The notes beneath the pieces are model-generated. The model was not told the DNA's origin. It saw only the letters and a program-made list of their open reading frames with translations, and ran no database searches. Source: Vicinamibacterales bacterium (lineage in GTDB: Bacteria; Acidobacteriota; Vicinamibacteria; Vicinamibacterales; UBA8438). From it: a DNA stretch of 42,836 nt. Positions 7,539-10,858 of this stretch are shown here, in pieces. The DNA lies in the NCBI GenBank assembly GCA_029940535.1, contig JAPYUM010000026.1:1-42836 (forward strand), read 5' to 3'. Every line of letters begins with the position of its first letter. Positions within the stretch are counted from its first letter, which is position 1. A program made the translations under genes and the position numbers.

Positions 7539-8147
7539 CTACCGGACTTCTGGCCCCCCGCGCCGGTCGTCGCGGACGAATCGGTCGCGCGCCGGCATGA
7601 CCACGGCGGGGAGGGTCCGCGCGTCCATGACCGCCTCGGTGGTGATGATGTCGTTCTTGGCCAGAATCCAGGCGACCAGCCCGTAGACCTGCGGGGCGGT
7701 CAGCGAGCCCGGCGCGTTCCGTGGCATGGCCCGGTTGATGTAGTCGTAGAGGGTTGTGGCATAGGGCCAGTAGTTCCCAACCGTCGAACGGTTGCTGCTC
7801 GGATCGCGACCGACGACCGGCGCGGCGGTGCCTCCTTCGCCGTCCGGTCCGTGACAACCGCGGCACGTCCGGGTCCAGGTCCGCGCCCCGTCCGCGGCGG
7901 TGCCGCTGCCCTCCGGGAGTCCAGTGCCGTCAGGCATGACGTCAATGTCGAGGGCCTCGATCTCGCTCGTAGTCGCGGGCCGGCCCAGCCCAAAGCTGTC
8001 CGGGTGGTCCGAGGGCGGCGACGGCTGTTGTCCCGCCGCGGCGGGCGCCGCCACCCACAGTCCGCCAATGATCCCCACGACCCCGACCCACCCGACCACG
8101 TCGGCACGCCTCGTCGACTCCGAACCGCCCGTGCGCGGGCGCCTCAC
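7539..8147 (-). CDS. SoxD-like monoheme cytochrome c partner of the molybdoenzyme
   Basis: The exported protein of 202 residues has a signal sequence (VGVVGIIGGLWVAAPAAAG) and one heme c site, CRGCHG. Surrounding blocks (GLGRPATTSEI, DIDVMPDGTGLPEGSG, VGNYWPYATTLYDYINRAMP, and a MDARTLPAVVMPARD tail) match the cytochrome subunit SoxD of SoxCD sulfane dehydrogenase. It would pass electrons from the molybdenum centre to the respiratory chain. GTG 8147 overlaps the stop of the upstream soxC-like gene (GTGA), so the two are coupled. Classical SoxD has two hemes; only one is present here, as in SorB-like partners. Confidence 0.82.
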   Translation of the reverse strand: MRRPRTGGSESTRRADVVGWVGVVGIIGGLWVAAPAAAGQQPSPPSDHPDSFGLGRPATTSEIEALDIDVMPDGTGLPEGSGTAADGARTWTRTCRGCHGPDGEGGTAAPVVGRDPSSNRSTVGNYWPYATTLYDYINRAMPRNAPGSLTAPQVYGLVAWILAKNDIITTEAVMDARTLPAVVMPARDRFVRDDRRGGPEVR

Positions 8148-9385
8148 GACCGCAACCTCTCGGCCCCAAACAACACGCGGCCATCGTCGCCGACCGTCCA
8201 GGACGTGATCGGGTTCTGGTGATACCGCGTGCGGGGCCCGCGCGCCGCTCGCAGCGTCTCCCACGTCGGCTGCACGTAACCGGTCTCGTCGGTGGCCCGA
8301 CTCATGATCTCGGCCGGCTCCCCACCCCATTCCCACCGGTGCCGAAACCGCACGTGCGCCTTCGGCAGCACCGGTCCCTGCAGCGTCGCTGCCTGCCAGG
8401 TGGTACCGCCGTCGGCACTGACGTCGACCCCCGTGATTCGCCCGCGGCCGCTCCACGCCAGACCCCGGATCTCGTGCCAGCCCGGTTCGATGACGCGTGG
8501 AAAAGCGGGGTCGGTGATGATCGAACGGGCGTCCATCACGAAGCTGAATTGGCGTGATTGGCTCCCGTCGCCCAGTGGATCGGTATATTTCGACGTTTCC
8601 TCCCGGGTCATGAACGGCTGGTCGGCGAGTTCAATCCGTCGCAGCCATTTGACACTCGAGTTGCCCTCCCAGCCCGGAAGCAGCAGGCGTGCCGGGTATC
8701 CGTTGCCCGGCATCAGCGCATCGCCGTTCTGCGCGTAGACGATCATCGCGTCGTCGAACGCTTTCTCCATCGGAATGCTCCGCGTCATCACCGCGGCGTC
8801 CTGCCCCTCGGCGAGGAACCAGGTGGCGTCGGGGTTGGCCCCGACCTCCTTGAGCACCGTCGACAACAGCACCCCGGTCCATTCCGTCTGACTGGTGAGG
8901 CCGCAGACCATCTGCGGCAGGGTCTCTGGTGTACCGCGTCGCAGGTTGCCCGAACACTCCAGGAAGCAGATGCGGGAAGTGGCCGGGAACTGCTGGAGGT
9001 CAGCCAGGCTGAACACGGTCGGTCGGTCGACCATGCCGTGGACGAGCAGCTCGTACTGGGCCGGATCGATGTCCGGAACCCCGCCGTGATGCCGCTCGAA
9101 GTGCAGGTCGGCGGGAGTGATGGTGCCCCGCAGGTCTTGAAGCGGCGTGCGCGAGGATGTCGCACTCGGGTCCCGCTGGGGGGTCACGAACCGCGACCGC
9201 TGGTCGACCTCGTTCGGACCGCGCCCGGCTCGGCGCGTGGTCGTGACCGATTGCTGTCCGGCCACCGGGGCGACCGCGGCGGCGCCCATCGCGCCCGCGG
9301 CACCAGCCAGCAACTCTCGCCGCGTCAGCCGCTCACGTCGTCTCGGCGCGCCTGCGTCCGTGTGTCGTATCCGCTCATTGGCCAT
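8144..9385 (-). CDS. soxC: SoxC-like molybdopterin sulfite/sulfane dehydrogenase
   Basis: A 413-residue periplasmic enzyme of the sulfite oxidase family. A twin-arginine signal (LTRRELLAGAAGAMGAAA) is expected for export with its molybdenum cofactor. The blocks LRGTITPADLHFERHHGGVP and RICFLECSGN are typical of SoxC; Cys144 in ECSGN is the predicted molybdenum ligand. A C-terminal Mo-co dimerisation domain follows (VDVSADGGTTWQAA). Substrates in the family are sulfite or SoxY-bound sulfane sulfur. No soxXYZAB genes are in the window, so sulfite oxidation is as likely. ATG 9385 has a GGTGGAG ribosome-binding site; an ATG further upstream in frame lacks one and would precede the signal peptide. 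Confidence 0.88.
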   Translation of the reverse strand: MANERIRHTDAGAPRRRERLTRRELLAGAAGAMGAAAVAPVAGQQSVTTTRRAGRGPNEVDQRSRFVTPQRDPSATSSRTPLQDLRGTITPADLHFERHHGGVPDIDPAQYELLVHGMVDRPTVFSLADLQQFPATSRICFLECSGNLRRGTPETLPQMVCGLTSQTEWTGVLLSTVLKEVGANPDATWFLAEGQDAAVMTRSIPMEKAFDDAMIVYAQNGDALMPGNGYPARLLLPGWEGNSSVKWLRRIELADQPFMTREETSKYTDPLGDGSQSRQFSFVMDARSIITDPAFPRVIEPGWHEIRGLAWSGRGRITGVDVSADGGTTWQAATLQGPVLPKAHVRFRHRWEWGGEPAEIMSRATDETGYVQPTWETLRAARGPRTRYHQNPITSWTVGDDGRVLFGAERLRS

Positions 9386-9520
9386 GCATTGCACTCCACC
9401 CTGGTCTGGCGTCGGCTCGATGCCGGAGTCGTGCCTCATGTGGGGACGAACCGTCGTCGGGTTCTGGCCACGGTGCCAGAGCGCCGCGACGGGTCCCAGT
9501 CGTGTCGAGCGTATTATGCG

Positions 9521-10090
9521 TCAGTCGACGGGACCGTCGACCGGCACCAGCTCCTTGAGCTCTTCCACCCAGTTCGTGACGACGTGTACCTGCTGTGCGG
9601 GCGGCACCTCGCCGTCGGTCGATGGTGTGTCTACCAGCAAGAGGAATCGCTGTCCGTCACGACTCACGTCATAGTGCGTGCCGGTGTTCAGCGGTCGCGC
9701 ATAGGGCCTTGTACGGCCACGGTGGGTCGTCCCAGTGTGAGCGCATCGCCCGACGTTATCGGGACCGTCATGATGGCATTCGGTTCGGCGTAGTAGAACA
9801 ATTCCGTTCCGTCGGCCGACCAGCGCGGCCGAGAGCCACCGTCTGAAGATACCGGCTGGAGTCCGTCGTCGACATTCGGGAACGGTCGCCCGTAGACCTC
9901 GAATCGTCCCGATTCGTCCGACTGATAGGCCAACCAGCGGCCGTCGGGCGACACCTGGGCGTTCACTTCGCTGAACAACTCGTCGAGCAGGACCTCCTCC
10001 ACCCCGGACCCGTCCACACCGATGATGCTGAGGTCGTTAGGGCCCGCGAACTGAGGTGCGAACACCAGCCGGCCACCGTCGTCATGCTGC
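9521..10090 (-). pseudogene. C-terminal PD40 beta-propeller remnant of a eukaryote-like Ser/Thr kinase
   Basis: Minus-strand blades read NAQVSPDGRWLAYQSDESGR, FEVYGRPFPNVDDG and PRWSADGTELFYY, the WD40-like (PD40) repeats found at the C-terminus of acidobacterial PknB-type kinases. A one-base deletion near 9705 shifts the frame: the last conserved stretch (PLNTGTHYDVSRDGQRFLLL ... WVEELKELVP) continues in the next frame to TGA at 9523-9521. The 5' side stops abruptly near 10090, where an opposite-strand HNH gene fragment begins. A kinase N-lobe fragment on the same strand lies at about 10519-10606. Non-functional. Confidence 0.75.
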
Positions 10091-10467
10091 ATGACCGGGC
10101 GGGGCCGGTCCTCGACGTCGGGCGCAAGACCCGCACCATTCCGCCCGCAATCCGACGCGCCCTCGCTTCGCGTGACCGCCATGGCTGCTTTCCTGGATGC
10201 GAGTCCCGTCACTGCGACGCCCACCACGTGCGGCACTGGGCCGATGGCGGCGCCACTCGTCTCAACAATCTGGTACTGCTCTGCAGACGGCATCATCGCG
10301 CCGTGCACGAGGCTGGGTTCGCGGTCGCGTTGGAAGAAGACGACGAAGTGCGGTTCACCCACCCCGGCGGCTGGCCCCTTGTCCCTGCGCCCACGGCACC
10401 GCAGTGGACCTGGGCTGCACTCTCCCCGACCGCCGCGCGCACCTCGGCCCGAGGCGCCATACAGTGA
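10091..10467 (+). pseudogene. C-terminal fragment of a DUF222/13E12-type HNH endonuclease
   Basis: The frame encodes PVLDVGRKTRTIPPAIRRAL, then a zinc-finger-like CFPGCESRHCDAHHVRHWAD and NNLVLLCRRHHRAVHEAGF: the HNH nuclease domain that ends 13E12-repeat/DUF222 proteins. The His-Asn-His core (HHVRHW, NLVLLC, RRHH) is intact and the natural stop at 10467 appears kept. The several-hundred-residue DUF222 N-terminal region is missing. No ribosome-binding site was found. The family is widely associated with mobile DNA. Its left edge coincides with the break in the kinase/PD40 remnant. Confidence 0.7.
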
Positions 10468-10518
10468 CGGAATAGAGTTCGAGCGTGAGGCGCTACGGAG
10501 GGTCAGTGCCTCTCGGGG

Positions 10519-10606
10519 CGTAGGGACGAGACGGTGTCACCGGAATTCTCGATGCCGTAGATGGATGGGGTTCCCCGATGGTTCAGGCTGGCGAGCACCT
10601 GCGCCA
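10519..10606 (-). pseudogene. N-lobe fragment of a eukaryote-like Ser/Thr protein kinase
   Basis: The minus strand reads AQVLASLNHRGTPSIYGIEN followed by SGDTV in one frame, matching the alphaC-beta4 region of PknB-type kinases. Only this short piece remains. Together with the PD40 tail at 9521-10090, it shows that one kinase gene was broken and largely deleted around the HNH fragment. Confidence 0.6.
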
Positions 10607-10621
10607 CGAAGGGCAGGCGGT

Positions 10622-10858
10622 TCACGCCGGTGCGTCGCGGCGAGCTTGTATCGCTGTGATAATTTCGTCTGGTTCGGGGAACCGCTCTTCCGCTTGTTTC
10701 GAAAACACGAGATCGCCGTCGACCACGACGTCGAATTGCCCTCGGGCACCGACGACGACCTCGGCGTCAATACCGACCGCGTCCTTGATGGAGGCCGCCA
10801 AACTGGAGGCCTTGGGCAAGTAGTTTCAAACCTTGCAGTAGCTGATCGAGATATGCAT
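10622..10858 (-). CDS. SelW/Rdx-family selenoprotein candidate (in-frame UGA = Sec)
   Basis: From ATG 10858 the product would be 78 residues: MHISISYCKV, then UGA, then NYLPKASSLAASIKD and the rest of a thioredoxin-like SelT/SelW/SelH (Rdx) fold, ending PDEIITAIQARRDAPA. The UGA at 10828-10826 sits exactly where the family has the second residue of its redox motif: Cys8-Lys-Val-Sec11, a CxxU site. Homology continues in frame on both sides, and a hairpin resembling a bacterial SECIS begins 14 bases after the UGA. Rdx proteins are small cytosolic thiol/selenol redox proteins of poorly known substrate. Standard gene calling would report only the part after the UGA. The alternative is a nonsense mutation of a TGC cysteine codon. 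Confidence 0.72.
10792..10812 (-). promoter_or_regulatory. Bacterial SECIS-like hairpin after the UGA codon
   Basis: The minus-strand RNA folds as AGGCC (10812-10808), U, CCA (10806-10804), loop GUU (10803-10801), UGG, C, GGCCU (10796-10792): five plus three base pairs with one U/C mismatch. The apical loop begins with G, 23 bases after the UGA, within the distance known for bacterial SECIS elements read by SelB. Folding was done by eye. Confidence 0.6.

Follow-up and report, generated by a model that had tools for sequence, protein, structure and literature searches.

Does the in-frame UGA of a short minus-strand gene in a Vicinamibacterales genome encode selenocysteine (Sec), or does it mark a gene that is dead or read in another way? 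The gene lies in the window analyzed here, a stretch of 42,836 nts (positions 1 to 42,836) of contig JAPYUM010000026.1 of assembly GCA_029940535.1. A sequence-only reading of this DNA had proposed a SelW-like selenoprotein, with homology to the Rdx family continuing across a UGA at the second redox residue, in a gene that annotation pipelines would truncate or miss.

A SelW-like reading frame with an internal UGA

The translated frame comprises 78 codons (10858-10625, minus strand), starting with an ATG at 10858 and followed by a terminal TGA at 10624-10622. The internal TGA is found where it had been placed, at 10828-10826, and corresponds to codon 11, the second redox residue of the motif C8-K-V-U11. 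With this codon written as U, the translation is MHISISYCKVUNYLPKASSLAASIKDAVGIDAEVVVGARGQFDVVVDGDLVFSKQAEERFPEPDEIITAIQARRDAPA. Standard pipelines do end the gene at codon 10 or skip it altogether.

The product was matched over residues 3-71 by the Pfam family Rdx (PF10262; E=2.8e-16, 59.9 bits for a cut-off of 22.6), by TIGR02174 CXXU_selWTH (52.5 bits, cut-off 34.2) and by NF041051 SelTWH_Campy. The latter is the best curated model over these residues, yet its score of 84.8 bits is slightly under the cut-off of 88, which was counted against the Sec reading. Because the Rdx-profile matches cover residues 3-71 with the UGA read through, the similarity is unbroken across the TGA, as had been claimed. 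Both redox positions of C8-K-V-U11 are invariant when U is counted as C, in keeping with the CxxC/CxxU motif of Rdx proteins.

An AlphaFold model built from 18 related sequences (mean pLDDT of 91.6) predicts the thioredoxin-like fold of the Rdx family, with TM-scores of about 0.80-0.89 against crystal structures of bacterial SelW-related proteins, those for 2fa8, 2ojl and 2obk being about 0.85-0.89. The same fold is shared, at 20-32% identity, by 2fa8 from Agrobacterium, 2ojl, 2obk, 3dex and mouse SelW (2npb), the mouse protein being only a weak match to the selW-like product.

Conservation of the UGA codon among relatives

In the order, a match was detected in 41 of 162 genomes, and TGA occupies codon 11 in all 35 readable copies of the selW-like subfamily (28 plus seven more). 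Within the window's own family, the selW-like gene is present in 22 of 28 genomes. Twenty of these copies reach the active site and all 20 carry the TGA, while the remaining two are broken by contig ends before it. At the level of the phylum, 121 of 396 sampled Acidobacteriota genomes have a match, and an in-frame TGA was found in all but ten among the matches listed; those of the ten that were inspected include two partial matches from the order (G079 and G077) and the Cys paralog of genome G161. TGA is also present at the same codon in homologs from Myxococcota, Planctomycetota, Pseudomonadota, Chloroflexota and Binatota. The closest named contigs, at 78-90% protein identity, are MAGs of Acidobacteria or Vicinamibacterales, and the named relatives of the organism are all metagenome assemblies. 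In a short protein tree, the members of the window's family fall together on one side of a branch with a support of 78; elsewhere the tree is poorly resolved.

The sequence-only reading expected the Cys-containing homologs to show CKVC. This was not borne out, the close homologs all being CxxU instead. Only three Cys copies were found in the order (L078-L080, motif CTQC), and they were rejected as orthologs because they fall in a different Rdx subfamily, the one typified by Agrobacterium 2fa8. In the Agrobacterium protein, as in these paralogs, the second redox residue is Cys, where the gene studied here has the UGA. The column of the UGA holds Sec in all readable close homologs and Cys in the paralogous subfamily.

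The distribution of the codon bears on the possibility that a Cys codon was turned into TGA by mutation or sequencing error, leaving a dead frame. TGA is one base away from TGC and TGT, and the genome is a draft of 228 contigs. However, the TGA stands at exactly codon 11, with the remaining frame intact, in independent assemblies of several phyla, and the stem located downstream (see below) is under selection at synonymous sites. Since the TGA is kept in every readable close homolog and is accompanied by a SECIS, this explanation was rejected and is regarded as extremely improbable. The decay or misread Cys codon against which the sequence-only reading had cautioned was not seen in the relatives.

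Among the more distant homologs, an Rdx protein encoded in a Planctomycetota MAG (L070, CANEYR010000004.1, 3001-3255) has TGA at both redox positions (H-U-T-S-U-G), and its four sisters (L065-L068) have CxxU. It is possibly a diselenide-type UxxU SelW, or possibly the result of a single sequencing error. UxxU was reported for a Prx-like family in a GOS paper.

A bacterial SECIS hairpin downstream from the UGA

A hairpin is located at 10812-10792 on the minus strand (AGGCC-U-CCA-GUU-UGG-C-GGCCU), in which 5+3 pairs and one U.C mismatch carry an apical GUU loop at 10803-10801. Its first base is the 14th after the UGA, and the G of the loop, at 10803, is the 23rd, so that the pairing, loop and distances described from the sequence alone are all correct. 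The bSECIS model specifies a loop of 3-9 nts, a G in the first two loop positions, a spacing of 16-37 nts and an energy of at most -7.5 kcal/mol. The hairpin agrees with these published rules, having a 3-nt loop that begins with G, a spacing of 22 nts and an energy of -11.8 kcal/mol. An Rfam scan of the window returned no matches.

A further point counted against the Sec reading is that the plain fold of 61 nts (10830-10770) is not unusual compared with dinucleotide shuffles (z=-0.21). Because folding against dinucleotide shuffles was uninformative, synonymous recoding and covariation were chosen. Only 1% of recodings that preserve the peptide and follow local codon usage were as stable as the hairpin, implying that its stability is more than chance.

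The decisive evidence for the hairpin, and for the reading of the UGA, is comparative. In an alignment of 75 distinct sequences drawn from several phyla, 85.3% of the cells of the stem are paired, against 34-49% when it is slid, and the stem scores 0.330 for covariation, compared with 0.126 +/- 0.012 in shuffles. Both sides change at pairs 18-36, 21-33, 23-31 and 24-30. The pair types seen are CG and GC at 24-30, CG, GC, UA and AU at 21-33, and GC, CG, AU and UA at 18-36. The loop G is invariant and RNAalifold supports the hairpin, although two of five whole-structure measures, the number of pairs with changes on both sides and the number of further pair types, are not above shuffles. Agreement with the bSECIS rules and this covariation both uphold the earlier view of the hairpin as SECIS-like.

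Several stem exchanges, for example C21-G33 to G21-C33, fall on codon wobble positions and hence are not forced by the protein. Furthermore, the four four-fold wobble sites located within the stem (codons 17, 18, 21 and 22) are invariant across 19 family genomes, whereas each of the remaining 17 sites of this kind varies, an outcome with a hypergeometric chance of 1.7e-4 if relatedness is ignored. The alignments thus indicate a stem that is held by compensatory changes and is under selection at synonymous sites.

Codon 10 (10831-10829), which immediately precedes the UGA, has T as its wobble base in 18 of the 19 genomes of the family, even though the encoded residue varies between Val and Arg. 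This constancy suggests that the 5′ context of the UGA is under selection.

Selenocysteine machinery in the same genome

The assembly is a draft of 4.83 Mb that is 96.85% complete. The sequence-only reading had named selA, selB, selC and selD as the genes to look for in this genome, and all four, which are the criterion for bacterial selenoprotein genes, are present in it. The tRNA-Sec is encoded on contig C10 (66.8 bits, cut-off 47), and ARAGORN likewise identified it as tRNA-SeC (anticodon tca). SelB is full-length (656 aa, 344 bits; contig C84), and SelA and SelD are encoded on contigs C93 (531 bits) and C158 (292 bits), respectively. Across the order, SelA is above the cut-off in 121 of 162 genomes.

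An FdhA-like molybdoenzyme gene on contig C48 (L124, G000:C48; reverse complement, frame 1) has a TGA at the molybdenum-ligand position, in the context RIUHSPTVASLAATFGRGAM. It was checked by profile only, and a run of N follows its TGA. This gene is apparently the second selenoprotein gene of the genome, in which case the Sec machinery would have more than one client.

The UGA could also be read as another amino acid, such as Trp by a recoded tRNA, or by near-cognate read-through. Only the in-frame TGA itself speaks for such decoding. On the other hand, UGA terminates ordinary genes in this genome, including the selW-like gene itself, and the residue encoded by the internal UGA falls in the Cys/Sec column of the CxxU/CxxC motif, upstream from a covarying hairpin of SECIS type and in a genome with the full Sec machinery. 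As UGA also ends genes here and the machinery is complete, an alternative code was rejected, and decoding other than by Sec is given next to no credence.

The locus is therefore almost certainly a genuine selenoprotein gene, in which UGA codon 11 is decoded as Sec with the help of a SECIS read by SelB, and which encodes an oxidoreductase of the SelW type with a CxxU site. SelB bound to the hairpin, from the 14th base after the UGA, would deliver Sec-tRNA(Sec) at codon 11. The product would be a small protein of the cytosol, with a thioredoxin fold and belonging to the SelW/Rdx family. By alternating between a selenenylsulfide and a reduced selenol/thiol pair, its C-x-x-U site would act as a reductant that depends on thiols. 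This role is suggested by analogy with the one proposed for other Rdx proteins. The frame, its homology and predicted fold, the conserved UGA, the covarying SECIS and the complete Sec machinery are established here, whereas the actual insertion of Sec, as well as the redox activity and physiological role of the protein, is inferred.

Genomic neighborhood and linkage with soxC

In the window, selW is followed on the minus strand by a gene for a soxC-type sulfite dehydrogenase (8144-9439; TIGR04555, 485.5 bits for a cut-off of 420), with a Tat signal and a molybdenum cofactor. A cytochrome c protein is encoded after soxC, on the same strand and in a SoxD-like position (7539-8456; Pfam Cytochrome_CBB3/Cytochrom_C), and its true start is probably inside this ORF. 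On the other side of selW, the opposite strand carries genes for a HAD hydrolase, a deaminase and MsrA, which are frequently conserved as well.

soxC lies directly downstream from selW, on the same strand, in 20 of the 21 informative genomes of the family, an adjacency and shared orientation consistent with a proposed selW-soxC operon. A cytochrome c ORF follows soxC in most of the linked family genomes with enough sequence, and in several genomes the SelW stop and the SoxC Tat motif are only 100-180 nts apart. This lineage-specific linkage was not found described in the literature.

The arrangement raises the possibility that the selenoprotein has a role tied to the adjacent SoxC and cytochrome c, through a selW-soxC-cytochrome operon, rather than that of a general thiol reductant. 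Close and consistent adjacency in the family favors this idea. However, the SelW-like genes checked at other loci are not beside soxC, and the linkage is absent from all flanks checked outside the window's bacterial family; hence it may be simple neighbor conservation. In addition, SoxC would be exported by means of its Tat signal whereas no signal peptide is evident in the selW-like protein, which makes direct contact between the two unlikely. In the window itself, selW and soxC are separated by about 1.2 kb of other sequence. A role tied to SoxC is judged unlikely, and it is slightly more doubtful still that the SelW-type selenoprotein of this family is a dedicated partner of the SoxC-type sulfite/sulfane dehydrogenase with its cytochrome c. 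If true, such a partnership would connect the function of SelW/Rdx proteins, which is poorly understood, with the oxidation of inorganic sulfur.

The intervening sequence (9440-10621) is lacking in most relatives and contains a PD40/TolB-like ORF (9688-10362, minus strand) overlapped on the opposite strand by an HNH ORF (10084-10467, plus strand). At the corresponding position, the sister genome G146 carries about 1.0 kb that is mostly different in sequence, so that this segment looks like a variable insertion site.

Relation to known SelW-like selenoproteins

The description of bacterial SelW-like selenoproteins dates back to the Sargasso Sea survey (PMC1088965), and Global Ocean Sampling yielded 427 SelW-like selenoproteins against 56 Cys homologs (PMC2398784). 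A 2006 paper listed Acidobacteria with four selenoproteins from three families and noted that SelW-like has few Cys homologs. The earlier statement that selenoproteins of this family are rare in bacteria is hence incorrect, SelW-like being the selenoprotein family that is most widespread among marine microbes. The proteins of the marine metagenomes (PMC1088965, PMC2398784) resemble the present one in being small Rdx proteins with CxxU, an in-frame UGA and a bacterial SECIS directly downstream. They differ in that they come from reads and contigs of mixed communities, whereas the gene described here could be assigned to an Acidobacteriota genome, together with its neighbors and the Sec machinery of that genome.

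The selW-like gene is an ordinary member of a well-known selenoprotein family, and it matters mainly as a gene that is cut short by standard annotation. Its conserved soxC neighborhood provides a lead, and no more, on the function of SelW, which is poorly known. SelW-type selenoproteins whose SECIS covaries well are present across much of Acidobacteriota, and the SECIS alignment of 75 sequences could be used as a model specific to the family when such genes are annotated.
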